Counted from the first letter of the stretch, positions 843 through 21,274 are shown. The stretch is DNA of 64,000 nt from Deltaproteobacteria bacterium (GCA_029261875.1 JAJDAL010000054.1:1-64000), one strand, 5' to 3'. Numbers and translations are program-made. The notes: generated by a model not told the origin, from the letters alone.

Positions 843-3800
843 TCAATAGACCTCGCGAACGAACACGCGTTTGCGGCTGCCCTTGTAGATCCCGTAGGTG
901 ATCCGGGTGGTGGGCGATTCGGGGCCATTGCCGTTCCAATCGAACTTCAACCATTCGGGGTCTTCGCTGCACCCGATCCCGACGAGGCCGTCCAGGGGGT
1001 AGGTCTGCGGAAAGGTGAACTGGTTCCCTGCGCCCGGACGCGCGTAGCGAAGCATCGCCTCTCCACCGTTGAGGGTTTCGATCTCCCGGATCTCCGTGGT
1101 GCTGTCGCGCACCACTGTGAGCTCGGCATCGCTCCGGTCTCCCGGAGGATGCCCACCGATCGATTCGAACTTCGGAAGGCCGCGATTCGTCAAGAACAGC
1201 TGGCCAATCGCGTCGCCGCGAAAGTCAACGTCGTCGCCAGCGGTGACTTGGGCGGCTTCGAGTCCGAGACACGAACACGCCGTACCCCCAACCCCCTCGT
1301 CGACGTTCGTCACCCAGGCTCCGCCCCCGATATCGGCGAAATATTCCAATCGTATGGGGACATCCAACAGACCGGATTCGGCTTCCGAGCCGTAGGCGTT
1401 CGGGATGTTCAAGCGACCCCAGCGGAATTGAGGACTTGCGACGTTGACGCTGCCGCCGAGCAGATGGGGAGGGGGGGACGTGATGTCCGGACGGACTGTC
1501 GTGTAGAAATCCCACAGATCCGGCTCTTCGAGGTCCATCGTCAGCGTCAGGGTATGGGGCACATCGTTGAAGTCATAGTTGACGTTCAAGTCTAGCGTCG
1601 CGGCACCCGACGGTGCGCTGGAGAAATCGAGACTGTTCAAGAAGCCGGAAATCGTGGGTTCGAGCGTCTGACCTTGGTAGGAGACTCCCGAGAGGTTGCG
1701 AATTCGGAACCCGTTGTGGTCCGCCAGGTCCGAATCATCCACGTCGAGCTTTGCCCATCCGTCGACGTTGACGTAGTTCTGTGTGATTCCACCGCTCGCG
1801 TTGATGGCTTGGAGATGTACCTGCCCTTTCAGCGGTTGACCCGCGTAGGTGAAGGAACGGTTCACGTCGAAGATGCCGTCCGAAGGTTCGCTGGTGTCGA
1901 TGTAGCGCTCGCAACCGGGTCTCAAGAAGGAATCAGAGTCGGTGACGCCCGTTGCGAGAGCGAGGCCTTGCGTCACATTGGCGATCGCGAACTGGTAGGG
2001 GATGAAGCGCCCCAGGTTCACGCTCGGGAAGCTTCGCGCTCCGATGTCGCTTGCGAGGTAGCCATCCAGGTCGACCGGGTTGCCGGGAGTGTCCTGGGTT
2101 CCGTCACCGTCCCAATCCCATTGTGCGTCGGCGACGTTGGCCCGGACGCCGATGATTCCGACTTCCGGGTACGTGAAGGTCGCCTTGGCGACGCCGTCCC
2201 GGTTTCCGTCCTTGAAGTTGAAGACGACGGAGAGGTTGGGGTCGGGGATCTCTACGATCTCGGGATCGTTCACTCCGCTATGAGACGGTGCCAGGATCTC
2301 CGCATGCAGGCGCACATCTTCGGGCTTGCAGACCGGCGGATCTTCGCTGCTCTGGCACTCGTAGCCGAAGCTCTGCGCCACCTTTCCACCCGGTGCACCC
2401 GTCATGGCGGTAACGGTCACCTCGAAACTTTCGCCGGCCCGGGCGAAGATCGGATTCGCGACGCCATCGTTGGGGTCGACGACGGGGGCTGACGCGCCCG
2501 CGGTCCCCGAATCCAGAATCTGCGAGAACTCGACCTTGAAGTGGTCCGGCGCGACGACGAACGTGCCTTCCCCGAACGGACCGAACTGCATTCCCTCCAC
2601 GGGATTGACCGAACCCAGGTCACAGTTCGCAGTCCACGGAGCGTGCACTTCGCTGTTCATGTAGATCGTTTCCTCTTCGTCCCGCATATCGACGAGACAA
2701 AGCGAAATCTTGCCGACGTCGTCGTAGCGAAGCGGACCGAAAGTCGCGACGCCGTCGACGAACTCGAGCGTGAGGTTGGTATTCGCGATATCCGCCAGGA
2801 GTCCCAAGTAGCCCCCTCCGAGGGGGATCGATAGCGGCGCCCGCGCATTGAGTTCGTTGCCGCCGTAGATGATCAGCTCTTCACCGTCCACGGGGTCGAC
2901 CTGCTTCATCCAGGCGTGGAGCGTCTTGGTTCCGGTGTAGGTTTCGATGACGCCGCATTCTCCGCCGTCCTGCATTCCGTAGGCGGTGATCTTGGGCGTG
3001 AAGTGCACGCCGGCGAATTTGGGCGTCATGCCGGTTGCGGTCGGGTTGTTGTCGGTCAACAGCAAGCCATAGGGGAAGAACGAGATCGTGACGTCGTCGT
3101 TGTCCGCGATCCAGCGCCGACCGACCTGTTCGATGTCGATGTCGAGATGCTTGCTCGGGTGCTTGAACGTCAGGTCGAATTCCGCGACGCCGTCGTTCCC
3201 GGCTTGCCATTGGAAAAAGATCGGTCCGGTTTCCGTTCGCGTGGAATCCGCGAGTTCGTTTCCGAAGATGTCCGTGAATTTTCCAGCACCGACGATCTCG
3301 AGCTCGAATTGATCCGTGATCAGAGTCCCGTCCTTCTCGCGCAGGATGAGTTCCGTGACTTCGCCCTTGTCGCCGAACTGCGGGTGGAGTTCGTGCTGGG
3401 AGTTCCGTGTGTTGACCGAAATCCGCTTGGGGTGGCACGCGGTTCCGTAAGTCGACGGGTAGTTGAAGGAGAACCCCTCCATGTAGGCCTGGCCGTGAAC
3501 GGCCTTCAGGTCCACGTGGGAATCCGTGGCAAAGGCGACGCGCTCGTCTACGATCTTTCGGGCTTTTCCGGCCGGCAGGCCGTCGATGGTGTTCGCCGTT
3601 GCATTGTATTCGATCACATCCCCGTCGCGGAAATAGCGCCGACCCAGGGAAAGGAGTCCGTTACCGCCGGAGCTGCTGCTCGTCGTGGAAAGGAGGTAGA
3701 GTCCGTTGGGGAGCAGCGCGAACGCGTCGATGTCCTCGTCGCGCCGAAACACCTGGTTGGCTCCTTCGAAACCGGCAGACCAGAACAACCGCGCGGCACC

Positions 3801-5441
3801 GGGTGCGAGTCCGTCGCGGGTCGTCGACGAACCGTTCCATTCGACGATGTCGTGGTCATCCCAGCCGACGTATCCCGACGCGAATCCTTTGTCCGTGTTC
3901 ATGTTCTGAACGGTCGAGATCAGCAGACTCAACTCTTGTCCGGTGGCGAGGTCACGGGACACGCTGATGGCGTCGATGTCGACAGAAGTGCTGTTGGTGT
4001 ACACGTTCTCGTCGAGCAGCTTGACAGCGGTACCCGGAGCGATGGGGTCGCCCCAGAGACTCGTGGTCACGGGTCCCAGCGCCGCGGATCCCGCAGGGGC
4101 GTTGGGATTCAAAACGTGCGGATTGTACTCGAAGACTTCTCGCGGACGTAGTTTGATGTGAGGAAACTTGGGGTCGTCCTTGGCTCCCGCATAGGTGACG
4201 AAGCTGGGTCCGGTCGTGAAGGTTCCGATCAGGTTTCCGTTGTCGCGGATGTGAATGCCGTGGAGATCGCAGTTCTGTTCACCGACGCAGATCGGCTCCG
4301 AAGTGCCGAGGACCTGTCCGGGGATGAGGGGAAACGTGACGACGCCGTCGTAGGGCGCGTCCGGGTCGTAGCGGTAGCTGTACACGTGTCCCGGCCGCAT
4401 GCTCCAGACTCCCGCGACCGTATCCGTGTTGTTTCCCGAAACCACGAGATCCCGATTCGAGACGAAGGTATCCGACGACGCGAGCAGTTCCTGGATTTGA
4501 GATTCGTTGAGCTGAAAGTTGAACAGTGCGAGTTCGTCGACGCCACCGCAATAGGGAAACGTGAACACGTTGTTGTCGAGGGGCATCTGCTGTCCGACCG
4601 GGCTGAATTTCTGGCTGGCGCCGATGACCATCGGGTCCGGGTTGTTGGTCAGGTCGAGCAGGACATCCGAATTCTCATCGACGAGTTCGCCCTCGACGTA
4701 GAGACGAACACCGCGGTTGGCCCCGGAGCTCTTCCACGTGACCGTGACGTGGTACCAGTCCTGGTGATTCGTTCCGCCGTAGGGCGGTTGCTGGAGGCGA
4801 ACGAAGACGGGATTGCCCGAAGAGTCGACGGCCTCGATGTCGGCGCGTATCCCCGTCGTGACGGGATTGCCCGAGATCTCGATGCTGTGCTCGTCGATCA
4901 GGGCGGGACTCACGTGGTCGCGCGAGAAGAAGACACCGTCGGCCTTGTGGAGGTCCGTGGGCATCACGAACATCGAGATGGTCCCCTCGGGCGTATTGAA
5001 CGCCGTGGGAATGGGGGGCAGGGGGTCCGGCGCGTTGTTGGTCGTCCAGCCGGGAACCCACGCAAAGCCGGGTTTGTCGAAGGCGACGCCCGGATCGTTT
5101 TCCTTGCAGTTGCCGCGGAACCACACCGCCTGGTCGCCGTCCTCGGTGGCGGACTCTTCGAACCCTTCCCTGTAACCGTTTTTGACCTTGCCGCGGCGCT
5201 CGTAGGAGCCCGTGTAGTTGCCGAACTCGTCGTAGAAGGCCACGCGGTTGGGTCCGGGCGGATCGTCGAAGCGCCAATAGCCCACCGGGCCCAGCGAGGT
5301 CACGGCGTCGCTGTAGGCGGCCTGGGACACGTCACCCGCAAGACCCAGGCTGAAAGCCACGAGGATTGCGAGCCAATTGCCGGTCCGAGAAGTCGATGAG
5401 GAAGAGAGCCAAGTCGAGTGGAAGGGCCGGGGGGAGGCCAT
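843..5441 (-). CDS. Giant secreted LamG-DUF6701 protein (MshQ-like), fourth gene of the array in transcription order
   Basis: A surface protein of about 1,532 residues, probably exported and adhesive. The signal peptide is around residues 20-40 (hydrophobic LAILVAFSLGLAG, then VSQAAYSDAV). A LamG-like lectin fold follows (about 50-300, with WYHVTVTWKSSG, RLYVEGEL, MVIGASQ and CGGVDELALF). Next is a middle module with DNGN and RDEDIDAFALLPNG motifs, a Cys-containing Ig-like stretch, and a C-terminal DUF6701-like region (GRFIPYQFAIAN, FTYAGQPLKGQV, NIPNAYGSE, ending YGIYKGSRKRVFVREVY). DUF6701 is known from MshQ of the MSHA pilus; its biochemical role is unknown. I chose ATG 5441 because GGAG lies 10 nt upstream and the signal peptide fits; an ATG at 5486 is possible. 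I found no c-di-GMP aptamer in this leader. It is the most divergent of the four paralogues. Confidence 0.85.
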   Translation of the reverse strand: MASPRPFHSTWLSSSSTSRTGNWLAILVAFSLGLAGDVSQAAYSDAVTSLGPVGYWRFDDPPGPNRVAFYDEFGNYTGSYERRGKVKNGYREGFEESATEDGDQAVWFRGNCKENDPGVAFDKPGFAWVPGWTTNNAPDPLPPIPTAFNTPEGTISMFVMPTDLHKADGVFFSRDHVSPALIDEHSIEISGNPVTTGIRADIEAVDSSGNPVFVRLQQPPYGGTNHQDWYHVTVTWKSSGANRGVRLYVEGELVDENSDVLLDLTNNPDPMVIGASQKFSPVGQQMPLDNNVFTFPYCGGVDELALFNFQLNESQIQELLASSDTFVSNRDLVVSGNNTDTVAGVWSMRPGHVYSYRYDPDAPYDGVVTFPLIPGQVLGTSEPICVGEQNCDLHGIHIRDNGNLIGTFTTGPSFVTYAGAKDDPKFPHIKLRPREVFEYNPHVLNPNAPAGSAALGPVTTSLWGDPIAPGTAVKLLDENVYTNSTSVDIDAISVSRDLATGQELSLLISTVQNMNTDKGFASGYVGWDDHDIVEWNGSSTTRDGLAPGAARLFWSAGFEGANQVFRRDEDIDAFALLPNGLYLLSTTSSSSGGNGLLSLGRRYFRDGDVIEYNATANTIDGLPAGKARKIVDERVAFATDSHVDLKAVHGQAYMEGFSFNYPSTYGTACHPKRISVNTRNSQHELHPQFGDKGEVTELILREKDGTLITDQFELEIVGAGKFTDIFGNELADSTRTETGPIFFQWQAGNDGVAEFDLTFKHPSKHLDIDIEQVGRRWIADNDDVTISFFPYGLLLTDNNPTATGMTPKFAGVHFTPKITAYGMQDGGECGVIETYTGTKTLHAWMKQVDPVDGEELIIYGGNELNARAPLSIPLGGGYLGLLADIANTNLTLEFVDGVATFGPLRYDDVGKISLCLVDMRDEEETIYMNSEVHAPWTANCDLGSVNPVEGMQFGPFGEGTFVVAPDHFKVEFSQILDSGTAGASAPVVDPNDGVANPIFARAGESFEVTVTAMTGAPGGKVAQSFGYECQSSEDPPVCKPEDVRLHAEILAPSHSGVNDPEIVEIPDPNLSVVFNFKDGNRDGVAKATFTYPEVGIIGVRANVADAQWDWDGDGTQDTPGNPVDLDGYLASDIGARSFPSVNLGRFIPYQFAIANVTQGLALATGVTDSDSFLRPGCERYIDTSEPSDGIFDVNRSFTYAGQPLKGQVHLQAINASGGITQNYVNVDGWAKLDVDDSDLADHNGFRIRNLSGVSYQGQTLEPTISGFLNSLDFSSAPSGAATLDLNVNYDFNDVPHTLTLTMDLEEPDLWDFYTTVRPDITSPPPHLLGGSVNVASPQFRWGRLNIPNAYGSEAESGLLDVPIRLEYFADIGGGAWVTNVDEGVGGTACSCLGLEAAQVTAGDDVDFRGDAIGQLFLTNRGLPKFESIGGHPPGDRSDAELTVVRDSTTEIREIETLNGGEAMLRYARPGAGNQFTFPQTYPLDGLVGIGCSEDPEWLKFDWNGNGPESPTTRITYGIYKGSRKRVFVREVY

Positions 5442-5513
5442 AAGCAGCGTACTCCGAATCCACGCCGCAAAGCCCGCCGGGGCCATTGCGGAAGAGGGGA
5501 ATTCCTAACCAGT

Positions 5514-5638: not shown

Positions 5639-5668
5639 AAAAAAAAGGGCGCCCCAGAGGACGCCCTT
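5639..5668 (-). terminator. Rho-independent terminator of the 5691-9950 gene
   Basis: Read on the minus strand, AAGGGCG pairs with CGCCCTT around a 10-nt loop, and the second arm runs directly into a run of T residues. It starts just past the stop codon of the third DUF6701 gene. It should separate that transcript from the downstream DUF6701 gene at 843-5441. Confidence 0.85.
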
Positions 5669-5690
5669 CGAGTCGAATGCGTTTCCTGGC

Positions 5691-8600
5691 CTAGTAGACC
5701 TCGCGAACGAACACCCGCCGCCGACTGGCCTTGTGGATCCCGAAGGTAATCTGCGCCACCGGGTTGGTGTCGATCCCAGAACCGTCCCAGTTGAACTGGA
5801 GCCAGGTGGGCGGCACACCGCACATGGTTTCGAGCTTGTAGGGCTGACGGAAGGTGCCGGGGTGATAGTCGGTACCGTCGAAGGGCGGCAGGAAACGCAA
5901 CAGGGCCTGCCCAGCGGGCGTGACCAATCCGTCATCTTCGTTCAGACCGAAGATTTCACTCACGGCCGAATGCGTTCGGGCTTCGGGGCTTTCGTTGGCG
6001 CGATCCGACTCCCGTACCGCCACGAGGTCGAGTTTGAAGGCGGCCTCGGTTCCGTTGTCTTTCGCGGCATCGATTCCCAGGCACGAGCACGAGCCATCTT
6101 CGAACCCGTTGACGACCCAGGAGCCCCCGCCGATGTCGGCGTAGTGTTCCACGAGCATCGGGACGTCGAGGGGCTCGAGCTCCGAACCGTACGCATTGGG
6201 GATCCGGAGACGTCCCCAGCGAACCAACGTGCTCCCGATGTCGGTGAAACGCGCCGGGCCATCCATCTGGTCCGCCGTGAAGGCGGAAAGTTCGTCTTCG
6301 GAAACCTGGATCTGCACGTGGCTCGTCGCCTCGAGCTGGGGATCGGCGCTATCCCATCGGAGATCGAGCTTCACGGTTGCGACACCGTGGGGAGCCGCAT
6401 CGAAGTCCTCTCCCGAAAGGAACTGGGTCGTCATCAACCCGTTGAAAGGCGCATCGTTCTCCAGGCTATTGAGGGCCGTGACTTCGCTCGCGGGATCCAA
6501 CTTCGCGAAATCGCCGAAGTAGTTCGAGGTCCGCGCCCCGTGGACGTTCTGCGCTTCGAGTCGCACTTGACCCGAGAACGGTTGCTTCCCGTAGGTGAAG
6601 GAACGAATGTCGGTGACGAGTCCGTTGCCGTCCTCTTCGACGTTGACGCAGGCGGGCTTGACGAAGGTCGCCGTCGGGCTGTTGTCGTAGTCGAAAGGCG
6701 CGGAGCCCGGGGTGTCCGCCCGGGGATTGAGGACGGCGAACTGGGCCGGGATGAATCGCCCGATGGGGCCTTGCGGGTCCACGACCGCGGCGCCTGCGCC
6801 CGTTCCGAGGTAGTCCCCGTCGCGAACGTCCACCTTGACGTTCAGGCTGCCCACCTCGCTCCAACAGAAATCGCCGGAGGCTACGGCGTCCGTTACATCG
6901 AGATCGGCGAAATCCAGGTTTCGTTCCGACGCCGGATCTGCGGAGCAGCCTTCCGAGAACAATCCGAAACTTCCGTGTTGTCCGCCGTTCGATTCGAGCG
7001 GAGAGACGACGATCGCTTCGAACAGGATGTCTTCGGGCGAGGGTGCCAGTGCGTCGTTGGTCTCGAAGCCGAAATTCGGTGTCGGATCGTCATCCGCATC
7101 GAGAGCGGTGACTTCGACGCGAAGCGAACTCCCGGCGCGCTCGAATACGGGACCCGCAGTGGCATCGGTGCCTTTGGGATTGGTGTCGGGAGCGGAGCCC
7201 GTGAGGTGGATCGTGTCGATCGCCACATCGAAGTGATGCGGGCGCACGACGAAGAGGTGGTCGCCGTAGGGGCCGTGATCGGTTCCCGGGGAAGGCGAAT
7301 CGCTGCCCCACTCGAAGCCGGGGTCGCGCAGGGATTGACCGGTTTCTTCGTCCTGGTCGTCGTAGACGTAGAAGCGGACCTGGCCCACGTCCTTGTACTT
7401 GAGGCCTCGGATGGTGGCTTGACCTGCGGTGAAGGCGACCGGATGTGCGACGGTGGTCTGACCGGCCGCCAGCATGGCGGTGATGTCCGCGGCCTGCATG
7501 GCGGGAACCGGTGAGAGCATGCCGGTGAAGGTCATCTCGCGGCTTCCGATGCTCGGGTCTTCGTACGCCATCCACATGTTGAGATTCTTGGTGCCCACGT
7601 AATCTTCGATTACGCCGCACTCGCCGGTTTCGCCCAGGCCGAAAGCGGTGAGGTTCAGGTCGAAGGGGCTACCCGCGGTGGCGAAGTTGCCCGTCGTACC
7701 CTCGGGGAAGACCGTGTCGACCAGCTCCGTGCGGAAGCCGCGCGGGTAGAAGCGGATGTCCGTGCTCTGACCCTCGATGGTCGGGTTGCCTTCGTCGTAG
7801 ACCACGACGCGCACGTCGTCGTCGCCGCGCTTGTATTCCATCTTGACGGTCGCCATGGCTTCGCCCTGCCAGCGGTAGCGGGCGCGCCCGTCTTCGAGGT
7901 CCTCGAAGCACGGTTCGTCCACGCCATTGATGGGGCAAACGCCGTCGGGTCCGTGCCAGACGATTTTTTTGGGGCCCGTGTATCCGTTGGGATAGACGGC
8001 TTCGATGATGGTGCTTCCACCGTAGGGGGTGAAGCCGTCGCCGTTGCTCAGGAGGGGCTGGATCTCCAGGTCCTCGGGAAAGCAGTTGACGCCGATCTGG
8101 TTGTGCCGGATCGAGAAGGTCTCGTGGTACGGCGGGATCGAGAGGGCGCGGATGTTCTCGACGCGGTTGAACGCGACGCGCTCGCTCAGGATCTTGCGGG
8201 CTTCCTGGGGACCCAATCCGAATACGGTCTTCGTCGGACTCGGATTGAATTCGATCACTTCACCGCGGCCGAAGTAGCGGCGACCGAGCACCGAGGAGGA
8301 AGAAGCCGACGTCATCGACATGGCGACGTTTCCGTTGTGGAACACGTGGAAGGCATCGATGTCTTCGTTGCGCCGCGCAAAGCCGCCGGATTGCTCGCCG
8401 TTGAAGAAGATCCGGGCGTCGCCCTGGGGGAGCGTAACGCTGGTTCCGTCGTAGTCGTTGAAAGTCAGGTCGCTTCCGGTGTTGTTCCACTCGACGATCT
8501 GCGCATCGTCGAAGGGTAGAGCGTTGCTTCCGAACGTCTTGCCGTTCTGCGCGATCGAAAGCAGCAGCGTCCCGCGCTTCGGGTGGACCGAAAGCGCATC

Positions 8601-9950
8601 CGGCGGGAAGCCGACGCCGTTGGGCCAGTCCGAGCGCGTCAGAACCTTGGCCGCGTGCCCGGGCGCGATCGGGTCGCCCCAGATCGATGTCGTGGGCGTC
8701 GAGTTCGGGTTGTATTCGACGATTTCCTGCTTCTCGACGCGCAGCGGTCCGGCGCCGATGTCTTCGCGATCGCGGAACGTCAGGAGAACGTTTCCGTTGT
8801 CGTCGCGGATGTGCGATCCCATGATCTTGCATTGGTCCGCGCAGGGAATGCCGCGTCCGCGGGAACCGGGAATGGCACCCGGGTAGGCACCGGACAGTTG
8901 CGGCGTCTGCTGGTCGTAGTCGACGAGGTCGCCGGGAAAGAACTGGATACCGGCCGCGACTCCGGAATTGTTGACCGTAAGCGCGATGTGACGCCGGGGT
9001 TGAGAGGACGTCATGGTGATGAGCAGGTCGTCGATGTCCGTCGGAGCCAGGGTGTCGCCGAAGAACACGAAATCGTCGAGTCCACCGCAGAAGCCGTCTT
9101 CGTGGAGTTCCGAGCCGGGGTTCGCCTGCTTGCCCGAGGGGCTGTTGCGCTGGCTCGCACCGATCACCATGGGTTCTCCGTTGGCCGCCAGGCTGAAACG
9201 GGCATCCTTCACGAAGTCGACTTCGTCGCCGTCGATGTAGAGCCACATGCCTTTGCGTGCGCCGCTCGCGCGCCAGGCGAAGACGACGTGGTAGAAGGCG
9301 TTGCGGTCCGTCAGGAAGAACGGGTCGGCGTCGTTCTCGGTTTCGCTTTCGTCGTCGTCGAGATTGGACTTGTTGTTCGTGGAGCGCAGGCTCTCGATGT
9401 CGCCGTTGGGCATCTCCATGTCCACGCGCAGCTCACCGGTCGAGGGAACCAGGCTGATTTCGAAGCTCCCCATGCCGTTCGGGTGTCCGCTGGCGTCTTT
9501 GGAGACGATCGTGCGGTTGCGGCCGGCGGGGCCCGCCACCACGTTCCCGCGCTTGACGAAGAAGCTGAGCGAGCCGTTGTCCTGTTCGAAACCCGCGGCG
9601 TGCGGGACTTCGATCACGCCCGGGGCATCGCCCGTGGGGTCGCCGTTGTTGCGGCAATTGTCCATCTCGATCGAGAAATTGGTGCGGTCACTCGGATCCG
9701 CTCCCGGGTTCTGGAATTTGAAACGCCCTTCTTTGATGTAGTACCCGACCTGGCCCTGGATCGGCTCCGCGGCGTTCGGATGCGCGAACTGGGATTCCGA
9801 CAGCTGCCAGTAGTACAGGGCATCGGCGTGGGCCGAGATGCCCTGGTCGTAGGACGCGCGGGCCGCGGGTGCGAGCAGCAGGGCACCGAGCGCGGCGACC
9901 GTCGTCGCAACCTTGTAGGGGGAGTTCTGGGCGTATGTGGAATTTTTCAC
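5691..9950 (-). CDS. Giant secreted LamG-DUF6701 protein (MshQ-like), third gene of the array
   Basis: A 1,419-residue exported protein of the same family as its neighbours. The N-terminus MKNSTYAQ is followed by a hydrophobic segment and an Ala-rich cleavage site (LAPAARASYDQ). The LamG-like module spans about residues 40-310 (SFFVKRGN, FYHVVFAWRASGARKG, MVIGASQRNSP, CGGLDDFVFF). The middle module has the repeat-type motifs GSHIRDDNGN and RNEDIDAFHVFHNGN, ending GRGEVIEFNP. The C-terminus has the DUF6701 hallmarks GRFIPAQFAVLN, SFTYGKQPFSGQV, RIPNAYGSELE and FGIHKASRRRVFVREVY. The start is GTG 9950 with GAGGAG seven bases upstream. The leader contains no c-di-GMP aptamer that I can see, but has a 7-bp stem GTGCCGA/TCGGCAC. 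Downstream is a strong terminator, so it is probably its own transcription unit. Confidence 0.87.
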   Translation of the reverse strand: MKNSTYAQNSPYKVATTVAALGALLLAPAARASYDQGISAHADALYYWQLSESQFAHPNAAEPIQGQVGYYIKEGRFKFQNPGADPSDRTNFSIEMDNCRNNGDPTGDAPGVIEVPHAAGFEQDNGSLSFFVKRGNVVAGPAGRNRTIVSKDASGHPNGMGSFEISLVPSTGELRVDMEMPNGDIESLRSTNNKSNLDDDESETENDADPFFLTDRNAFYHVVFAWRASGARKGMWLYIDGDEVDFVKDARFSLAANGEPMVIGASQRNSPSGKQANPGSELHEDGFCGGLDDFVFFGDTLAPTDIDDLLITMTSSQPRRHIALTVNNSGVAAGIQFFPGDLVDYDQQTPQLSGAYPGAIPGSRGRGIPCADQCKIMGSHIRDDNGNVLLTFRDREDIGAGPLRVEKQEIVEYNPNSTPTTSIWGDPIAPGHAAKVLTRSDWPNGVGFPPDALSVHPKRGTLLLSIAQNGKTFGSNALPFDDAQIVEWNNTGSDLTFNDYDGTSVTLPQGDARIFFNGEQSGGFARRNEDIDAFHVFHNGNVAMSMTSASSSSVLGRRYFGRGEVIEFNPSPTKTVFGLGPQEARKILSERVAFNRVENIRALSIPPYHETFSIRHNQIGVNCFPEDLEIQPLLSNGDGFTPYGGSTIIEAVYPNGYTGPKKIVWHGPDGVCPINGVDEPCFEDLEDGRARYRWQGEAMATVKMEYKRGDDDVRVVVYDEGNPTIEGQSTDIRFYPRGFRTELVDTVFPEGTTGNFATAGSPFDLNLTAFGLGETGECGVIEDYVGTKNLNMWMAYEDPSIGSREMTFTGMLSPVPAMQAADITAMLAAGQTTVAHPVAFTAGQATIRGLKYKDVGQVRFYVYDDQDEETGQSLRDPGFEWGSDSPSPGTDHGPYGDHLFVVRPHHFDVAIDTIHLTGSAPDTNPKGTDATAGPVFERAGSSLRVEVTALDADDDPTPNFGFETNDALAPSPEDILFEAIVVSPLESNGGQHGSFGLFSEGCSADPASERNLDFADLDVTDAVASGDFCWSEVGSLNVKVDVRDGDYLGTGAGAAVVDPQGPIGRFIPAQFAVLNPRADTPGSAPFDYDNSPTATFVKPACVNVEEDGNGLVTDIRSFTYGKQPFSGQVRLEAQNVHGARTSNYFGDFAKLDPASEVTALNSLENDAPFNGLMTTQFLSGEDFDAAPHGVATVKLDLRWDSADPQLEATSHVQIQVSEDELSAFTADQMDGPARFTDIGSTLVRWGRLRIPNAYGSELEPLDVPMLVEHYADIGGGSWVVNGFEDGSCSCLGIDAAKDNGTEAAFKLDLVAVRESDRANESPEARTHSAVSEIFGLNEDDGLVTPAGQALLRFLPPFDGTDYHPGTFRQPYKLETMCGVPPTWLQFNWDGSGIDTNPVAQITFGIHKASRRRVFVREVY

Positions 9951-10170: not shown

Positions 10171-10203
10171 ATCGGCCCCGAGCAAGCGTCGCTCGGGGCC
10201 GAT
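10171..10203 (-). terminator. Perfect 13-bp hairpin after the 10232-14722 gene
   Basis: ATCGGCCCCGAGC and its exact reverse complement are separated by a 7-nt loop, 28 bp past the stop codon of the second DUF6701 gene. On the minus strand it is followed by CTGTTTGTG rather than a clean T run. It is therefore probably a terminator or 3'-end-stabilising hairpin of imperfect type. Confidence 0.7.
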
Positions 10204-13200: not shown

Positions 13201-14722
13201 TCGTTCCTGGCGGGCCCCACATGGCTTCGAGGGGGACAATGGTGGGATTGAACTCGCCGATCTCGTGGTTCCGGACGCGGGGCTGGGAGGCGGCGTCCGG
13301 GTTCGTTCCGAAGTGTTCTCCGGAATGGTAGGTCAGCAGGATGTTTCCATTTTTCCGGACGTGCGCGCCCTTGATCCGGCACGCGCCGTTGCAAATGCCG
13401 TTTCCGCTCTCGGGGTCGGGCCACGCCGGGTGATGGGTGATGTGGCCGCCTTCGTTGACCGGGTCCGTGGGCGGATCGAAATGCATGAGGATGGCGGCTT
13501 TCCAGCTCAGGTCCGCGGGCGTCGACGTCACTTCGGGCGGCTCAGGGCCGGGATTCGGCTGGGCCGCACCGTTCGTTGCGAACCAACCGGGGTACGTCTT
13601 TTGACCGCCGATGCACTTCATCTTGCGATCGAACTCGGTCACCGTCGGAAGCCAATTTTGGATCGCGACCTCGTCGAGCGATCCGCACATCTGCGTCTGG
13701 GAAATCATGTTGTCGAATTTCCCGATCGGGCTCGCCTGGCGACTGCTCGCGAAGATCATGGGCATGGTGTTGTTCGCGAGGGTGAAGCGCGTGTTGTCGG
13801 GTCCGAAAGCGTGGTTCTGGTTGTCCACGCGCTCGATGAGATCGCTGTTGTTCGTGCTTTCGACGAAGAGCTGTAGGTTGGGTGCGGTCGGCTGCCAGGA
13901 GAAGGCCACGAACGTCCATTCTTCGCGGGGGATTCGATCGGATTGGAGTTGGGCTTCGTGGACCGGCCCCGGAATTCCAAATTCGTCGACGTGGTAGAAA
14001 TTGACCTGAATCACCGGATCGCGGTCGGCGATCTGGTCCGGCGCGAGTTGGATGGGATCGTTGCTTGGATCTTCCGTGTAGCGATAATTCAGAATGATCT
14101 CGAAGCCGAACTCGTTCGAACCCAGGGGAATTCCGTGGGATCCGGCGTAACCCGCGGCCATCTCGTTCTCGTTGTAGCGGGATATGATCGTACCGTTGAG
14201 GGGCTGATCGTTCTGTCGATTGATGTTGACGAACTCATCGGGCTTGATGAAGAAACTGATCGTGCCCCGGTCGAGCTGCGTCGCCGGGTTCGCGAGATTG
14301 TAGAGAAGCGGGTTGGTCGCGTAGGGGGTGGGGTCGTAAATTCGAACATGGGCGACGGGTTCGTTGTTCTGAACCCCGCAATCCTCGCCGAGGTTGAAGC
14401 CCTTCGCGAAGTTGCCGTCGTGGGTGCGTCCCGGATGCTGGAAGTCGACCTGGCCCTCTCGCCAGTACTCGCCATCGGTGGTCCCAATCTGGTCGCTCAC
14501 GCCGCCGACGCCCGCCAGGTTGACGTTCTCGCCCATGCGCCAATATGCGACCGTGTCGTCGTCGATGGCGTCCGGCGTGTTGACACCCATGCACTCTTCG
14601 TAGGTCGCCGCAGCGGGGCGCGGCGCCAGGGCGGCGATCCAGAGGATGGCCAGCAGGAAACCGATGGTTTCGGTGCGGGTGAGGGTGAATCGAAGCGCGC
14701 ACTCGCGGGGATTGCTTCGCAT
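10232..14722 (-). CDS. Giant secreted LamG-DUF6701 protein (MshQ-like) under a c-di-GMP riboswitch, second gene of the array
   Basis: A 1,496-residue exported protein. The signal peptide is IGFLLAILWIAALAPRPAAA followed by TYEEC. The LamG-like module (about 40-370) has ISFFIKPDEF, EEWTFVAFSWQ and MIFASSRQASPIG. The middle module repeats an HVRxNGN...EFNP pattern at least twice (HVRKNGNILLTYHSG; FRKDENINAFHVRPNGN ending GDIIEFNP), which looks like propeller blades. The DUF6701-like C-terminus has CAIIESYDG, GFTYADQPFKLAF, RVVNAYGSELKDV and FGIHKHSQKQVFTREVY. It is a close paralogue of the 15085-19422 gene, including signal peptide and leader. ATG 14722 is preceded by AAAGGAG with a 10-nt spacer, at the 3' edge of the riboswitch. 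A longer reading frame to 14983 runs through the aptamer and is rejected. Confidence 0.87.
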   Translation of the reverse strand: MRSNPRECALRFTLTRTETIGFLLAILWIAALAPRPAAATYEECMGVNTPDAIDDDTVAYWRMGENVNLAGVGGVSDQIGTTDGEYWREGQVDFQHPGRTHDGNFAKGFNLGEDCGVQNNEPVAHVRIYDPTPYATNPLLYNLANPATQLDRGTISFFIKPDEFVNINRQNDQPLNGTIISRYNENEMAAGYAGSHGIPLGSNEFGFEIILNYRYTEDPSNDPIQLAPDQIADRDPVIQVNFYHVDEFGIPGPVHEAQLQSDRIPREEWTFVAFSWQPTAPNLQLFVESTNNSDLIERVDNQNHAFGPDNTRFTLANNTMPMIFASSRQASPIGKFDNMISQTQMCGSLDEVAIQNWLPTVTEFDRKMKCIGGQKTYPGWFATNGAAQPNPGPEPPEVTSTPADLSWKAAILMHFDPPTDPVNEGGHITHHPAWPDPESGNGICNGACRIKGAHVRKNGNILLTYHSGEHFGTNPDAASQPRVRNHEIGEFNPTIVPLEAMWGPPGTMIQPGTTRKLLDECVWEGQGININAVSVHPERNTLLLSVESSNNKLGRIHCAGQNAINFTGPPSGGTLDWVDNFGDGDVVEYNGNAHAVVIPEWEARKTANFPIQTDDDDDLDPSSFGYPGDGTPAYELKPGGARLFFAGDSGDLEKEKFRKDENINAFHVRPNGNLIMSTTTASSAQEIGGKYFENGDIIEFNPHDHAVDALGAYQARKVWNEEAMFKNSENIAAITIDEYSSTLSHFLVQNSRTGLHCADNKVTVTAVNTADNVLVGYSGTIILFSAQGTEGSHLAEWSTTNGHNQVAMGTVYGALFGTYTFHPDDQGSVDFTFRQEIGSSSEGLWGHKVLPKVQELGDNTLNGIGQPMTLYPYSFTFTNEPLDPANPVMERAPMVSGTDNTMYLTAYGSEEPGANCAIIESYDGPNTLAALWYPGTEATYPVRPPITFENGGSSLAISSAVTFPEIEFDQGVATLDNFAFDEVGELHLLLLDWNEGLPLGITGSDSFLGTGALGMIGESVVFAPDHFEVGSSPIRNPSTGGAGGSTQNWFAYAGETFDVTVTAKNSKGNTTLNFGHEATPQTVELSYDMLSPLPFDDRHEPDLLTADPADGCGDCTEFVFANGVATGTVAWDAVGTIEIKADVNNAAAAIASGNTIGGYLDSGFVSQTVPVSDPLRFSPAAFEIADDYPTGVVPACGDPSDGFTYADQPFKLAFVKMRALRGDGSKAVNYHSANLSEDTWDPASIDYRINPVVEADAILEDAYLEVDSVQSSSGWGFGERVVQFGASIAEFYGPKTDVTLQLDESSFSEPDGAILVDHDIDPDTHFDFETTEIRNGRIRVVNAYGSELKDVRVPVQIEHKVDLGGGQEAWVVASDDACTQEALDPDPDTGTNVVGTYFKLKDIQPDSAASQHTPGIVDDPEVNPLPRFLGGRLVDTVGEPGAVLAAPGEENGGDVVVEFDTTMVPWLDEPDEVVDGKVTFGIHKHSQKQVFTREVY

Positions 14723-14736
14723 GTCTAACAAGCTCC

Positions 14737-14830
14737 TTTCGCCAACCGTTCGACCCGTTCGGCCATCGCCGAGTGAGGGCACTGGCTTTGCGCCACCGCC
14801 TTTCGACGGCTTTGCCTCTTCGCGGAGCCG
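14737..14830 (-). promoter_or_regulatory. Class I cyclic-di-GMP riboswitch (GEMM-I) controlling the 10232-14722 gene
   Basis: Minus-strand RNA shows the GEMM-I core: GAGGCAAAGCC, a P1b stem closed by a GAAA tetraloop (CCGTC-GAAA-GGCGG), then GGCGCAAAGCCAGTGCCC, a variable hairpin, and GGGTCGAACGGTTGGCG. The base equivalent to Vc2 G20 is G, which favours c-di-GMP over cGAMP. The conserved C near the 3' end is present. The aptamer runs straight into AAAGGAG (14733-14739). A CTCC on its 5' flank (14824-14827) could pair with that GGAG, so control is probably at translation. A small hairpin CGGCAC-GGT-GTGCCG (plus strand, 14829-14843) sits just 5' of the aptamer. Confidence 0.88.
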
Positions 14831-14880
14831 GCACGGTGTGCCGCTCTTGCGGGACCCGACGTAGGCAATCGCCCACATGA

Positions 14881-15084: not shown

Positions 15085-18000
15085 TCAGTAAACCTCGCGA
15101 ATGAAGACGCGCTTCCGGCTGGCTTTGTGAATGCCGAAGGTGGCCTTGCTCGGCTCGGGCGGCGGTTGGAGATGGACGGGAGCGTTGTCGAAGGTGATCC
15201 CCAGGCTTCCCTGCAGATCATCGGATGCGGGGGCTCCGAGCACAGCCGTTGTTTCTCCCCCGACGAAGGACGGCAGCTCCGTCCACGCCGTTGCGTTTCG
15301 GAGGTCTTCGTCCTCGGAAGTGTAGGGTGCGAGCCCACCCTCCAAGAAGTGCGCAATCATGTCTTCGGGGTCCGAACTCCCGGTGGCCGCGACGGCGGCC
15401 GCTGCGAGTACGTCTTGGGTGCACGACACATCGGCTTCGTTGCGCACCCAGGCTACGTTTCCGTTGAAGTCGGTCTTGTATTCGATCCGAATGGGCACCT
15501 CGAGGTCTTCCAGTTCGGACCCATACGCGTTGGGAATGTGGATTCGTCCGACGCGGATTTCCGTGTCGCCCACGGGAACGGCAACCCCGCCCTGAAGCAC
15601 CGCACCATCCGCATCGAGGGAGATCGCGTCCAATTGGACGGTGACGGTCTTTGCGGGGCCGTCATATTCCGAAGTGAGGTTGATACCGACCTTCCCGGTC
15701 CCGTTTTCCCATTGGGCCGTATGCCAGAAAACGTTTGTCTCATCATCGTCGAGGGTGTCGGACTCATCCACCGACTGCTGGTCGACCAGGCCGAGGTTGA
15801 GCGATGCCGGAGACGCGGCATCCCATTCGTGGGTGATCCACTGGCTGTGGTAGTTCTGTGCAAGGGTGTCGTTCGCCGTACGCGCCTGCAACGTCACCTC
15901 CGCGTCGAAACCTTGATTCGCGTACGTGAAGTGCGATCCATCGGTGCATGTGGTGTTGGCGGGCGTAACGTTCGTTGCCTCTGCCGCTGTATCGACGGAA
16001 AAGTACGCTGGAGAGAATCGATAGGACTTGCCAAAGGTCGTTTTGTCGACGGCGACCAGGTTCTTGTCGAGGTAGCCCGTCGTCAAGTGATTGTTCACGT
16101 CCGCGTTGATCTGAATGGTTCCGACGGCGTCCCAGGACACGGCCGCGGTCGCGACCCCCCCGCTGAACACGAAATCCGAGCAGCCCGCGCAATCGGTTTG
16201 GAGGGTTGGTTTGTTGACCGCCAGCTCGGGATCGGGTTCGGTCATCGTGTAGAGCAGATCGATCGTTTGCGGCGTGAGTTCATGGCCGAAGTTCTTCGTG
16301 GTTGCGTCTTTTGCGTTCTTCGCCGTGACGGTGAAATTGAACGGTTCGCCCGCGTAGGCGACCCAATCGGTGTCTTCGAGTACCGTGCCTTCGCCCAGAC
16401 CCGCGAGCGGTTCTCGTGCGCCACCGCTGATTTCGAAGTGGTGGGGTCCGAAGGTGAGCTGCTGCCCCCAGAGTCCGAGGACGCCGAAGGGTTGATCCGA
16501 ACCGGCGATCGATCCCGGCTCGATATCGAGCAAATACAAATTTACCGTCCCGACTTCGTCGTACTGAAGGTTGTCGAGTACGGCCCGGCCATTCGTGAAT
16601 TCGATTTCTGGGAAGGAACCGCCGTTGATCGTCACCGTGTTCTCGCCATTCTCGAAGGTAAGGGGAACGCGGTTCGGATCGATGTTGGCCGCATCGGGAG
16701 ACACGGGGATCCAAAAGGACGCCAACGACTTGGTGCCCGTGTAGCTCTCGACCACCGCGCATGCTTCGCTGGGGTTTTCGCTCCCGTAGGCGGTCAGGTG
16801 CAGTGTGTTTGGCATCCCGGCGATCATGGCGTCGGTCGTCAGCTCCAGCTCTGGATCGGTCTCGTCCACGGCTTCGTTGGTCAGGGTCAGGGCGACAGGG
16901 TAGAGGGTGATCTCTTGCCCCGTTCCGTTGAGCGTTGCGTCTCCCATCTGCTGCACATAGGGGACAATTTTTCGGCCCGCGTAGGTCTCGCCGGAATGGC
17001 CGAATTCTTGGCGGAATGTGAACTCGACGGATCCCTGGTCTTCGGGTGCGAAGGTGTAGGTGGCAAACAAGGCTCCATACACGGTGCCCATGTTGACCGG
17101 GTTGGCGCCATCGGTGGTCGACCAGGTGGCGAGGTGCGAGCCCTCCCCCGCGTAACCCGAAAACAGAATGATGGTTCCCGTGTAGCCCGCGAGCACGTTT
17201 CCCGCGGTATTGGTCGCGATCACCGTCACCTTGTTGTCCGCGCAATGCAGTCCGGTGGGTTCGTTGATGACCGTGAAACGATCCAGGGTGACGTCGAATT
17301 CGTCCAGCGAGATGGCACCGATGTTCTCGTCGTTCTTGAACATTGCCTCTTCGTTCCAGATCTTGCGGGCCTGGTAGCCACCGAGCCCGTCCACGAGGTA
17401 GGGATGGGGGTTGAATTCGAGAATGTCGCCCCGCTCGAAATACTTGCCGCCGATCTCCTGGCCACTGGCGGCCGAGGTGGTGGACATGACGATGTTTCCA
17501 TTGGGGCGCACGTGGATCGCGTTGACGTTCTCATCCTTGCGGAATTTCTCTTGATCGAATTCTCCCGAATCACCGGCGAAGAAAAGCCGCATTCCCCCGG
17601 GCAGAAGTTCGGGGCCCGGAGTCGCGTCGTCGTCATCATCCGCCTTTGAAATCGTTACGAAGTAGTCCGACGTTCGGGCTTCCCAGGCCGGAATGGGGAC
17701 CGCAGTGGCGTGGCCGTTGTACTCGATGGCGTCGCCATCCCCGACATTGAAGATGTAATCGCCCGTCACGCCGCTGGCCGGTAGATCGGGATTGATGGCC
17801 TGCTGACCGGCACAGTGCCCGTAGCCGGCGCTGCCCAGTTGCGCTTCCGTGGAGACGATCAGCGTGTCGCGGTCCGGATGAACCGATATGGCGTTGATGT
17901 TGAGCTGCTGCCCGCCCCAGACACAGAGGTCGAGAATTTTTACCGTCTTTCCGGGCTCGATCGTCTGATGCCCCCAGAGATCCGTGGTGGCGTCGGGGCC

Positions 18001-19422
18001 GGGATTGAATTCTCCGACCTCGTGATTCTTGATGAACGGCTGGCTAACGGCGTCCGGGTTGGTTCCGAATCGTTCGCCCGAGTGATACGTGAGCAGGATG
18101 TTCCCGTTCTCGCGAACGTGAACTCCCTTGATGCGACAGGCACCGTTGCAAATCCCGGTTCCACTTTCCGGGTCCGGCCAGGCATCGTGATGGTCGATGT
18201 GTCCCCCCTCGACGTTCGGGTCATCGGGTGGGTGGAAGCGCATCAGCGCCGCGGCTCTCCAGGTGATCGGCGACGGACTCGTGGTGACCGCCGGCGGCGA
18301 CGGTCCGGGATTGGCCTGGGCCGCGCCATTGGTGGAGAACCAACCCGGGAAAGCCTTGGTTCCCCCGATGCACTTGAGTCGGATGTCCCACTGGGTTTCC
18401 GTCGGAACCCACTTCATGACGGCGATCTCGTCGAGGCTGGCACACAGCTGACGGTCTTTGTCGAGGTTGTCGAATTGGCCGAGAAGACTGACCTTGCGAC
18501 TCGTGCCGAACACCATGGGCATGGTGTTGTCGATCAGGCTGAAGGGACGGCCCGAGTCGGGGTGCGTGTAATTCTCGGAATCGACCTCGTAGACGACGTG
18601 GCCGTCGGCTTCTCCTTCGACGAAAAGCGAGAGATCGCCGTTCGCCTTCCAGGAAAACGCGACGAACGACCACTCTTCTCGCGGGATCGGGTCCGGCGAG
18701 CGAAGGGTGACGACATTGTTGAGCTGGATCGGGCCGAACTCCGAGGTAATGGAGTAGATCTTGATTTCGATGTGGGGATCGTCGGTCGTGGTGTCGTTGT
18801 AGTCGAGTACGATTTCGAAGCCAAACTCGTTCCGGCCATGGTTGGGCGCGATCCCGGTGTAGCCCGCGTACATTTCCAAGATGTTGTAACGCGAGACGAT
18901 GACGCCATCCATCCCGATCCCGCTGTCTTTTTCCGGTTCGTGATTCAAGGTGTCGGGTTTGACGAAGAAACTCAGGGTGCCCGTACCGAGCTGAGTGGCG
19001 CTGTTTTCGAAGTGATATTGGTGCGGACCGGTTGCATATTCGTCCGGGTCGTAGACGAAGAACGACGCCGGTGCGTCGTTGCGGCCGCAATTGTCACCGA
19101 GGTTGAAGCCCTTCGAGAAGGAGCCGTCGTGGGTGCGGCCGGGGTTGTCGAACACGATCTGGCCTTCGTGTTTGAATGCGCCGTCGGAGGTGCCGACCTG
19201 ATCCGAAACACCGCCGATGCCCGGCAGGTTGACGTTCTCACCCAGGCGCCAATAGGCGACGGTTTCCTGACCCGGTGTGTCGACCGCGATGCATTGGTCG
19301 TAGGTCGCCGCGGCCGGGCGCGGTGCGAGGGCGACGATCCAAAGAATCGCGAGCAGAAGCCCGATCGCGATCGATTCCCGTGTCGGGATGCGGAGGGTGT
19401 TTTCTTTGGAACTACGTCCCAT
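15085..19422 (-). CDS. Giant secreted LamG-DUF6701 protein (MshQ-like) under a c-di-GMP riboswitch, first gene of the array
   Basis: A 1,445-residue exported protein. The signal peptide is IAIGLLLAILWIVALAPRPA followed by AATYDQC. The LamG-like module covers about 40-340 (LSFFVKPDTL, EEWSFVAFSWKANG, MVFGTSRKVSLLGQF, CASLDEIAVM). The middle module repeats HVRENGNILLTYHSG and FRKDENVNAIHVRPNGN, ending ERGDILEFNP. A Cys-containing Ig-like stretch (LHCADNKVTVIA) and a DUF6701-like end follow (CAVVESYTGTK, HIPNAYGSELEDL, FGIHKASRKRVFIREVY). It is the closest paralogue of the next gene downstream, and the shared leader suggests duplication of the whole unit. ATG 19422 has AAAGGAG eight bases upstream; a TTG 21 bases further up would lie inside the riboswitch. 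Confidence 0.87.
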   Translation of the reverse strand: MGRSSKENTLRIPTRESIAIGLLLAILWIVALAPRPAAATYDQCIAVDTPGQETVAYWRLGENVNLPGIGGVSDQVGTSDGAFKHEGQIVFDNPGRTHDGSFSKGFNLGDNCGRNDAPASFFVYDPDEYATGPHQYHFENSATQLGTGTLSFFVKPDTLNHEPEKDSGIGMDGVIVSRYNILEMYAGYTGIAPNHGRNEFGFEIVLDYNDTTTDDPHIEIKIYSITSEFGPIQLNNVVTLRSPDPIPREEWSFVAFSWKANGDLSLFVEGEADGHVVYEVDSENYTHPDSGRPFSLIDNTMPMVFGTSRKVSLLGQFDNLDKDRQLCASLDEIAVMKWVPTETQWDIRLKCIGGTKAFPGWFSTNGAAQANPGPSPPAVTTSPSPITWRAAALMRFHPPDDPNVEGGHIDHHDAWPDPESGTGICNGACRIKGVHVRENGNILLTYHSGERFGTNPDAVSQPFIKNHEVGEFNPGPDATTDLWGHQTIEPGKTVKILDLCVWGGQQLNINAISVHPDRDTLIVSTEAQLGSAGYGHCAGQQAINPDLPASGVTGDYIFNVGDGDAIEYNGHATAVPIPAWEARTSDYFVTISKADDDDDATPGPELLPGGMRLFFAGDSGEFDQEKFRKDENVNAIHVRPNGNIVMSTTSAASGQEIGGKYFERGDILEFNPHPYLVDGLGGYQARKIWNEEAMFKNDENIGAISLDEFDVTLDRFTVINEPTGLHCADNKVTVIATNTAGNVLAGYTGTIILFSGYAGEGSHLATWSTTDGANPVNMGTVYGALFATYTFAPEDQGSVEFTFRQEFGHSGETYAGRKIVPYVQQMGDATLNGTGQEITLYPVALTLTNEAVDETDPELELTTDAMIAGMPNTLHLTAYGSENPSEACAVVESYTGTKSLASFWIPVSPDAANIDPNRVPLTFENGENTVTINGGSFPEIEFTNGRAVLDNLQYDEVGTVNLYLLDIEPGSIAGSDQPFGVLGLWGQQLTFGPHHFEISGGAREPLAGLGEGTVLEDTDWVAYAGEPFNFTVTAKNAKDATTKNFGHELTPQTIDLLYTMTEPDPELAVNKPTLQTDCAGCSDFVFSGGVATAAVSWDAVGTIQINADVNNHLTTGYLDKNLVAVDKTTFGKSYRFSPAYFSVDTAAEATNVTPANTTCTDGSHFTYANQGFDAEVTLQARTANDTLAQNYHSQWITHEWDAASPASLNLGLVDQQSVDESDTLDDDETNVFWHTAQWENGTGKVGINLTSEYDGPAKTVTVQLDAISLDADGAVLQGGVAVPVGDTEIRVGRIHIPNAYGSELEDLEVPIRIEYKTDFNGNVAWVRNEADVSCTQDVLAAAAVAATGSSDPEDMIAHFLEGGLAPYTSEDEDLRNATAWTELPSFVGGETTAVLGAPASDDLQGSLGITFDNAPVHLQPPPEPSKATFGIHKASRKRVFIREVY

Positions 19423-19434
19423 CGCGGGGACTCC

Positions 19435-19530
19435 TTTCGACAACCGTTCGACCCTCTCGGCACGCGCCGAGGTCGGGCACTGGCTTTGCGCGACCGCCTT
19501 TCGGCGGCTTTGCCTGTTCGCGGAGCCGGC
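19435..19530 (-). promoter_or_regulatory. Class I cyclic-di-GMP riboswitch (GEMM-I) controlling the 15085-19422 gene
   Basis: The minus-strand core reads ACAGGCAAAGCC, then GCCGCC-GAAA-GGCGG (P1b with GAAA tetraloop), then CGCGCAAAGCCAGTGCCC, a stable hairpin CTCGGC-GCGT-GCCGAG, then GGGTCGAACGGTTGTCG. It aligns element by element with the aptamer at 14737-14830, with base changes on both sides of P1 (CGA:TCG here, CGC:GCG there). The G20-equivalent base is G. The aptamer abuts AAAGGAG (19431-19437), and an upstream CTCC (19522-19525) could mask it. Translational control is inferred. Confidence 0.9.
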
Positions 19531-19560
19531 GTCGTGACGCTGCTCGAATTCACGATCCCA

Positions 19561-19678: not shown

Positions 19679-21274
19679 TCAGGAAGTGGGGCGAACTTTT
19701 CGTCGATCTTTCACGACGCTGAGCAGAGCGCCTGCGCGTTCGATGCGCGCGATCTCGCGTCCCGACAATTTCTTGTGGCAATTGAAACGCGTGTAGGCGA
19801 TGAAGAAATCCGCGCTGCGCGGTTCGCGCGCGAGTTCGAGTCCCGGGGGCAGGAAGTAGGTGGTGGAAATCGGGTTGCCGCAAACTTGCACACGAAAGGG
19901 GCCGGGGCTGCCCTCCGCTTCCACGAAGGCCGCGAGTGCGCGCGCGGCTTCGGACAGGGAGTTTCCCCAGTAGTCGAGTTCGTAGCGTCCCTGGGCACCG
20001 GCGGTTCCGCCCACCAGCGCGTTGTAGAAAACGTATTGGTGGGGATGCAGGACCGCAAGTCGCTGGATCTGAAATCCGCCAGCACAAACGATTGCGACCG
20101 CGAGCAAGCGCGCGGCGAATTCCGAACGCGCGCCGAGCCAGCTCCACACCGCGTCGAAACCAACCGCCGCAGCGGCGGCGAGAAGCGGCAAGAGGAAGAG
20201 GAATTGGCGAATGCCGTCGTAGGCGTTCGGGCGCAACACAAGGAAGTAGGTGAACGGAGCCGCGATCGAGCAGGCGAGCAGGGCGGGCGGGAGGTAGCGG
20301 TCCAAACGCCCGCGTCCGCGCAAGGCCTCGACGCTCGCGAATCCGAACAGCCCGGTGGCGGCGACTGCGCCGAGCAGAACGACCTCCGGAAGCTTGGCAC
20401 CGAAATACAGAAACAAGTAATTCCAAGGCAGGTTGTCGGCCGCCACCGTGCGGCCCGCCAGGAGCACGGGACCGCCCCAGGGGTAGTCGCTGAATACCGT
20501 GATGGCGCGCCAGGGGTTGGCGAAGGGGTCCTGTTGGGCCCAGGGCCACAGCAACAGCATCACCCCATAGGCGACCGCGACCGCGGGCAGCAAGAAACGC
20601 ACGACGGTGTCGCGTGCTTCCCGCCAGGCGAAGCGCCGCTCGCGGATTGCGAGCAGAATCAGATAAAGAAGACCCACCACAGCCAAATAGATGGGTAGAA
20701 AGAATCCCCCGACCCGCACACCGAGCGCCATCCCCATGGCGATCCCCAGTCCGAGTGTGAGTCTCCAGGGGACCTTGGGGAGCCAACCCATCGCGCGCGT
20801 CCCCAACGCGAGGGACCACACCACACCCACCGCGAACGGGATGTCTTTGGGGTTGTTGAACATGTGACCGTAATAACTGGGCGTCAGAAACAGCAGCGCA
20901 GCGGCGAGAAAGGCCGCTCGCGGCCCCGCCAATGAGCGTCCGAGCAGCCAGCAACCCACGATGCCGAGGATTCCCACCAGCGGGTTCAGCAGGTGGCGGG
21001 TCTCGTACTCGCCGAGCGGGGAGAGGCGGTTCGCGAGGGCCGCCACACCGTCGAACAGCCCCCCATACAGATACATGTTGTGATCCGGCAGATAATCGAA
21101 GGCCCGCCGGTCCTCGAGGCCCGAGGTGTAGTAGGCGAGTACGTACTTCCCATATTCGTTGTAATAGGGCTCGTCGGAAGGGATACCGTAGTCTCCGAAG
21201 GTCCATACCACCGCGGCGAGTGCCCCGAGGAGACCCAACAGAGAGAATTTGTCGTAGCGATCCCAGCGCTTCAG
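19679..21274 (-). CDS. GT39-like polytopic membrane glycosyltransferase
   Basis: An integral inner-membrane protein of about 530 residues resembling GT39/PMT or ArnT-type enzymes. These transfer sugars from a polyprenyl-phosphate carrier to a target on the periplasmic side. The first membrane segment is followed by an acidic loop with GIPSDEPYYNEYG, where the DE pair sits at the usual catalytic position. Later motifs are LLNPLVGILG and YGHMFNNPKDIPFA, then about ten hydrophobic segments. The start is uncertain. No ATG, GTG or TTG lies near a good ribosome site, and I placed it at CTG 21274, just before the first membrane helix. An ATG at 21433 would overlap the divergent receptor gene by about 90 bp. 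The substrate is unknown. Confidence 0.75.
   Translation of the reverse strand: MKRWDRYDKFSLLGLLGALAAVVWTFGDYGIPSDEPYYNEYGKYVLAYYTSGLEDRRAFDYLPDHNMYLYGGLFDGVAALANRLSPLGEYETRHLLNPLVGILGIVGCWLLGRSLAGPRAAFLAAALLFLTPSYYGHMFNNPKDIPFAVGVVWSLALGTRAMGWLPKVPWRLTLGLGIAMGMALGVRVGGFFLPIYLAVVGLLYLILLAIRERRFAWREARDTVVRFLLPAVAVAYGVMLLLWPWAQQDPFANPWRAITVFSDYPWGGPVLLAGRTVAADNLPWNYLFLYFGAKLPEVVLLGAVAATGLFGFASVEALRGRGRLDRYLPPALLACSIAAPFTYFLVLRPNAYDGIRQFLFLLPLLAAAAAVGFDAVWSWLGARSEFAARLLAVAIVCAGGFQIQRLAVLHPHQYVFYNALVGGTAGAQGRYELDYWGNSLSEAARALAAFVEAEGSPGPFRVQVCGNPISTTYFLPPGLELAREPRSADFFIAYTRFNCHKKLSGREIARIERAGALLSVVKDRRKVRPTS

Follow-up and report, generated by a model that had tools for sequence, protein, structure and literature searches.

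MshQ, the closest described relative of the proteins analysed here, is a putative adhesin of the MSHA pilus, and its loss lowers the amount of MSHA at the cell surface (PMC7096442). It is secreted and of large size, with an N-terminal part that varies, a C-terminal DUF6701 domain (PF20419) and a conserved R-[ED]-x-Y end, and it is usually encoded by one gene per genome. On the RNA side, c-di-GMP-I (GEMM-I, RF01051) riboswitches of the Vc2 type have a full aptamer, a G at position 20 and a Shine-Dalgarno sequence hidden by the P1 helix, and Vc2 itself is described as a P1-dependent translational OFF switch (PMC9262584). A c-di-GMP riboswitch located directly before a surface adhesin gene is found for Cap (Bc2) of Bacillus thuringiensis and for surface proteins and pili of Clostridioides difficile, the one for Cap being an ON switch that acts on transcription through a terminator (PMC4933901). 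Pilus-related genes are also the targets of the GEMM-Ib riboswitches of Geobacter, which carry an A at position 20, respond to cGAMP (PMC6456294) and precede assembly genes (pilMNOP) and cytochrome genes.

The locus described here brings a known protein family and a known riboswitch class together in a combination that is new and lineage-specific; in the literature, no earlier case of a DUF6701 gene or of MshQ linked with a riboswitch was found. It lies in the window, which is the first 64,000 nt from base 1 of the 319-kb contig C54, in a 5.68-Mb draft genome of 60 contigs (94% complete, 64% GC) that is the sole representative of its family among the genomes compared. The proteins share with MshQ the large size, the secretion, the variable N-terminal part, the C-terminal DUF6701 domain and the R-[ED]-x-Y end. 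However, MshQ is encoded at the msh locus in three relatives, whereas the family described here comprises five genes away from that locus, and its LamG-like N-terminus contrasts with the beta-helix that both of the tested msh-linked copies have there. Two of the genes, A and B, have leaders that agree with the Vc2 type in the aptamer, in G20 and in the position of the Shine-Dalgarno sequence, but differ from it in having U or G at position 92, a putative upstream anti-P1 hairpin and a DUF6701 gene as target. In contrast to Cap, they are predicted to be translational OFF switches and precede genes of an unrelated protein family, and in contrast to the Geobacter riboswitches they have G20 and a tip-like protein as target. 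Leaders of the same aptamer subtype, also with the Shine-Dalgarno sequence in P1, are present in the same order before genes for SLT lytic transglycosylases, but the A and B aptamers bear more resemblance to one another and to that in the leader of a subtilase gene in their own genome.

Architecture of the DUF6701 array

As the initial annotation had proposed, the array consists of four consecutive open reading frames on the minus strand, all in the same orientation and 4.26-4.64 kb long, which together span 843-19422 (Table 1). The array had been drawn as reaching from 843 to 19680; its start is retained, but it ends near 19550 with the leader of gene A, and from 19679 onwards the sequence belongs to another gene. 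This is a glycosyltransferase-like PMT_2 gene at 19679-21433, immediately upstream of the array.

Table 1. Positions of genes and predicted RNA elements in the 64,000-nt window.
Feature	Position	Strand	Description
Gene A	15085..19422	-	Translated ORF, 1,445 aa, ATG at 19422; order: signal peptide, LamG-like region, middle region, DUF6701 end; PF20419 154.8 bits
Gene B	10232..14722	-	Paralogue of A, 1,496 aa, ATG at 14722; PF20419 143.5 bits
Gene 3	5691..9950	-	LamG-DUF6701 paralogue; PF20419 242.7 bits; PF13385 33 bits; no aptamer
Gene 4	843..5486	-	LamG-DUF6701 paralogue; PF20419 189.8 bits; PF13385 40.2 bits; no aptamer
c-di-GMP-I (GEMM-I) aptamer, gene A leader	19436..19524	-	RF01051 48.9 bits, full length
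c-di-GMP-I (GEMM-I) aptamer, gene B leader	14738..14826	-	RF01051 52.9 bits, full length
Shine-Dalgarno GGAG, gene A	19431..19434	-	3' strand of P1; pairs with GGCUCC on the 5' side of the aptamer
Shine-Dalgarno GGAG, gene B	14733..14736	-	3' strand of P1; pairs with GGCUCC
Upstream hairpin, gene A	19523..19545 (approximate)	-	Possible anti-P1; stems GAGC/GCUC and GCGUC/GACGC
Upstream hairpin, gene B	14825..14846 (approximate)	-	Possible anti-P1; stems GAGC/GCUC and GGCAC/GUGCC
Terminator-like hairpin after gene B	10171..10203	-	Strong, 15 pairs
Terminator-like hairpin after gene 3	5644..5669	-	11 pairs

The products have 1,419-1,547 residues and, with a signal-peptide-like segment read directly at the N-terminus of all four, are taken to be secreted. 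At the other end, all four match PF20419 up to the last position of the profile, with scores of 143-243 bits (E 1e-41 to 1e-71) against a Pfam cut-off of 27 bits, and direct reading shows that each protein terminates in REVY, which agrees with what had been reported from the sequence. A fifth paralogue of the same family is encoded on contig C33, with sulfatase and glycan genes next to it. The suggested expansion of the DUF6701 family is borne out.

The assignment of a LamG domain to all four proteins holds at the level of Pfam for two of them. PF13385 (Laminin_G_3) exceeds its cut-off of 27.6 bits in genes 3 and 4 only, at 33 and 40 bits, and in A and B the Pfam profile search gave no match even at E<=1. 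The products of A and B do align with that of gene 3, at 29% over the whole N-terminal half (E 1e-39) and about 32% in the LamG part, and this alignment indicates that they are homologous to gene 3 across the LamG region despite the missing Pfam match. The best-conserved region lies between LamG and DUF6701 (66% between A and B, 39% between genes 3 and 4). It had been described as propeller-like, which is suggestive at most: many of the top Foldseek matches of the middle region are beta-propellers, but all have E values of at least 0.01, and the AlphaFold2 model has a mean pLDDT of 41, with values of 58-84 in part of the middle only. Fold assignment from the structure models was rejected because these are too weak. 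As modelled, the DUF6701 half looks similar to generic Ig-like domain chains. A profile search of the PDB returned no solved relative of DUF6701, and NCBIfam has no name for the array proteins.

Aptamers and translation start sites of genes A and B

The two clear GEMM-I aptamers of the initial annotation were both recovered by the covariance model, over model positions 1-87 and above the gathering score of 35 bits. The two results that the annotation had named as refuting its reading, lack of a DUF6701 match in the C-termini and sub-threshold RF01051 scores in both leaders, are thus the opposite of what was found. In the first 25 kb, including the sequences before genes 3 and 4, no further RF01051 match was present even at E<=5, and degenerate aptamers upstream of genes 3 and 4 were rejected on this basis. 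In both leaders, GGAG starts one base past the last aptamer position and is followed by the start codon, which in gene A lies 8 nt after GGAG.

The proteins of A and B are 54% identical and their aptamers 87% (77 of 89 bases). In the coding DNA the longest match has an identity of about 66%, and the leaders remain homologous for about 150 nt on the upstream side of the aptamers. Beyond this pair, the aptamer most similar to that of B belongs to the genome's own subtilase leader (78%), and those nearest to A are L024 (76%) and then, again, the subtilase leader (75%). The joint homology of leaders, aptamers and coding DNA indicates that one gene was duplicated together with its riboswitch, A and B being the products of a single duplication of a gene-plus-leader unit. 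The array had been presented as a second-messenger-controlled set; two genes do carry riboswitches, but these are only two of the four and go back to one duplicated unit, and the claim was overstated.

Both aptamers have a G at position 20, the base that selects c-di-GMP over cGAMP (PMC6456294). With seven GGDEF proteins encoded in the genome and an EAL protein within the window (35720-36439), c-di-GMP is likely to be present, and we infer from the sequence that it is the ligand of both aptamers. Position 92, in contrast, reads U in the aptamer of A and G in that of B, while it is C in 10 of the 16 related leaders used for comparison, which are of one aptamer subtype and from the same order, A and B included. 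In Vc2, whose numbering is followed here, this position is a C that contacts the ligand. The substitutions are what speaks for the aptamers being in decay or binding another ligand, for example 3',3'-cGAMP. We consider this quite improbable, since the aptamers score well above the RF01051 threshold, are more conserved between A and B than the coding DNA and share G20, since U92 recurs in other genomes, and since the Cd1 aptamer retains binding with a shifted ligand-pairing C (PMC9262584). Position 19 is G wherever position 92 is U or G, in six of six such cases among the 16 leaders (A, B, L003, L024, L033, L053), a pattern that could point to an altered ligand pocket or to a shift in register.

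The GGCUCC that leads into both aptamers is complementary to the Shine-Dalgarno GGAG plus two bases. Pairing of the Shine-Dalgarno sequence within P1 is seen in 14 of the 16 leaders, and is weak or partial in the remaining two (L033, L053). Cognate P1-Shine-Dalgarno duplexes have a mean energy of -12.4 kcal/mol versus -10.4 kcal/mol for swapped ones, with 52 of 20,000 permutations as good, a count that gives no strict probability because the leaders are related. The register is specific: among nine leaders, 87% of cells are paired, against at most 59% when the strands are slid. Covariation between the Shine-Dalgarno sequence and P1 is modest, because the former hardly varies. The same 5' strand of P1 is often taken up by an upstream hairpin (mean z -1.29 over the 16 leaders), but the hairpins of A and B are individually no better than shuffled sequences (z -0.4 and -0.5). 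They are supported by compensatory changes, in that the stems GCGUC/GACGC and GGCAC/GUGCC are unlike in sequence yet each complementary. According to ViennaRNA the two states of leader A are close, with P1 ahead by 1.3 kcal/mol, while in leader B anti-P1 is ahead by 4.7 kcal/mol without ligand, which leaves the response range uncertain.

These features suggest a mechanism in which, without ligand, the 5' P1 strand GCUC(C) would be sequestered in the upstream hairpin and the Shine-Dalgarno sequence would be accessible. Binding of c-di-GMP would then favour P1, formed by GGCUCC and the GGAG, and translation of A and B would stop. Action on translation is the most likely mode, and the predicted sign is OFF, because the ligand stabilises P1 in this riboswitch class and Vc2 is switched off through P1. 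If the same genes were instead under an ON switch, c-di-GMP would raise A and B as it does with described riboswitch-controlled adhesins. The usual effect of c-di-GMP, which favours attachment, would fit such a switch, as would the ON switch of Cap (PMC4933901) and the ligand-free fold of leader B, in which the Shine-Dalgarno sequence is paired with the coding sequence. However, Cap uses a terminator, for which A and B have no room as the aptamer abuts the Shine-Dalgarno sequence and start codon, and the Shine-Dalgarno sequence is part of the very helix that the ligand stabilises; an ON switch is for these reasons rather unlikely.

Control by an OFF switch would be confined to A and B. Terminator-like hairpins follow gene B and gene 3, which argues against a common transcript of the four genes under one riboswitch. 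Genes 3 and 4 should therefore lie beyond the reach of the riboswitches, and these two and the distant paralogue on C33 would remain outside riboswitch control. A search for Sigma-70 promoters gave no match, a result that is uninformative at 64% GC. The leaders of gene 4 (window 5486-5590) and of the C33 paralogue (L012:18795-18930) have the short stretches CTCAGGGTTT and CGATCACAC in common, which could be a promoter or regulator site shared by the two genes.

Relation to the MSHA pilus

An MSHA pilus locus is present on contig C39 of the same genome (L070:10526-16719, L071:1251-4883). It contains MshL (TIGR02519, 275 bits versus a cut-off of 250.2), MshE with an MshEN domain, an MshG-type protein, several pilin-type genes and an MshM-type ATPase, and by these matches the genome encodes an MSHA pilus. 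No DUF6701 gene was found beside this locus. The next gene encodes a PMT_2-like glycosyltransferase (below cut-off), at the place where the locus of relatives closes with a DUF6701 gene. Such a gene lies in the msh cluster in three genomes of the same order (G033, G003, G076) and in a Gallionellales genome (L034), and in both members of the order that were tested the msh-linked copy has a beta-helix N-terminus. At two further loci of relatives (L058, L060) the DUF6701 gene has no msh genes around it. A pilus cluster adjoining the array or the C33 copy was considered and rejected, as none was found at either: within the 64-kb window there is a lone protein with an N-methylation motif (34905-35390) and no pilus or msh cluster, nor was there one at the C33 copy.

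What the proteins do can be approached through MshQ, itself a putative adhesin (PMC7096442), to which they are homologous. The array would be the result of a lineage-specific expansion of MshQ-like secreted DUF6701 proteins, in the course of which one gene acquired a c-di-GMP-I leader and was then duplicated together with it. Its products are most likely large surface or pilus-associated adhesins, with a LamG-like N-terminal domain, a conserved middle, a DUF6701 stalk and a constant C-terminus, and they probably work with the MSHA-type pilus of the genome, whose own locus is without a neighbouring DUF6701 gene. The adhesin function is thus deduced from homology, and the link to the pilus is indirect. 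For this account as a whole, including riboswitch gain, duplication and a translational OFF switch, we see about an even chance. The array proteins may alternatively be free secreted or cell-surface proteins unrelated to the MSHA pilus, with DUF6701 as a general surface-anchoring end, in which case the riboswitch may still work. The lack of a pilus cluster near the array and the C33 copy, the DUF6701 genes without msh surroundings in relatives and the C39 locus itself, with no DUF6701 gene, all agree with this. Against it stand the DUF6701 genes within msh clusters in the three relatives and in the Gallionellales genome, together with the retention of that cluster in the source genome, and we regard it as a serious but less probable option. 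More speculative, and in our judgement unlikely, is that one MSHA-type pilus takes its tip from five interchangeable, dispersed DUF6701 proteins, with c-di-GMP driving the motor through MshEN while riboswitches turn two of the tips off, which would change the binding specificity of the pilus as the cell passes from searching to settling.

If genes A and B are wired as proposed in the preferred account, they would be an uncommon instance of a c-di-GMP riboswitch that directly targets a pilus-tip-like protein and not the pilus machine. The predicted sign would moreover be opposite to the usual rule, by which c-di-GMP favours adhesin production. The family also shows that DUF6701 proteins can expand and leave the msh locus, which makes the role of MshQ testable through its paralogues.

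Distribution in other genomes and further aptamers

Of 80 genomes sampled from the order, 11 have DUF6701; the corresponding figures are 15 of 379 for the phylum and 81 of 369 for the class to which the Gallionellales genome belongs. Among the genomes sampled, five full copies occur in the source genome only, the others having one or rarely two. What comes closest to another such array is a tandem of two full DUF6701 genes in a genome of another class (G627, contig C32:35253-41022). The expectation that DUF6701 genes and RF01051 would frequently co-occur in related genomes failed. In the order, 10 other genomes carry DUF6701, and RF01051 adjoins a DUF6701 gene in none of them, with four having it elsewhere. 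Nor does it in any of 80 further DUF6701 genomes, 27 of which carry RF01051 elsewhere; these genomes are fragmented and the search of the 80 used stricter filters, by which rare cases may be missed. The pairing of DUF6701 with the riboswitch is a lineage-specific recruitment, not a widespread system.

Other aptamers of the source genome lie before an SLT transglycosylase gene, before a pair of subtilase genes and, in one case, before no obvious gene. The second of these is a c-di-GMP-I riboswitch upstream of two adjacent secreted subtilases (L016:7946-10840). The third (L015:8297-8378, minus strand) has no obvious gene on its strand, and the next gene runs towards it. SLT transglycosylase genes are the usual c-di-GMP-I target found in the order: leaders with the Shine-Dalgarno sequence in P1 precede small secreted SLT lytic transglycosylases at L022, L023, L026, L027, L032, L054 and L014:7661-8410, and this looks like an order-wide regulon. 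In a related genome, a c-di-GMP-I aptamer is located upstream of an EAL-HDOD gene (L053:1501-2932), an arrangement that is possibly a feedback loop.
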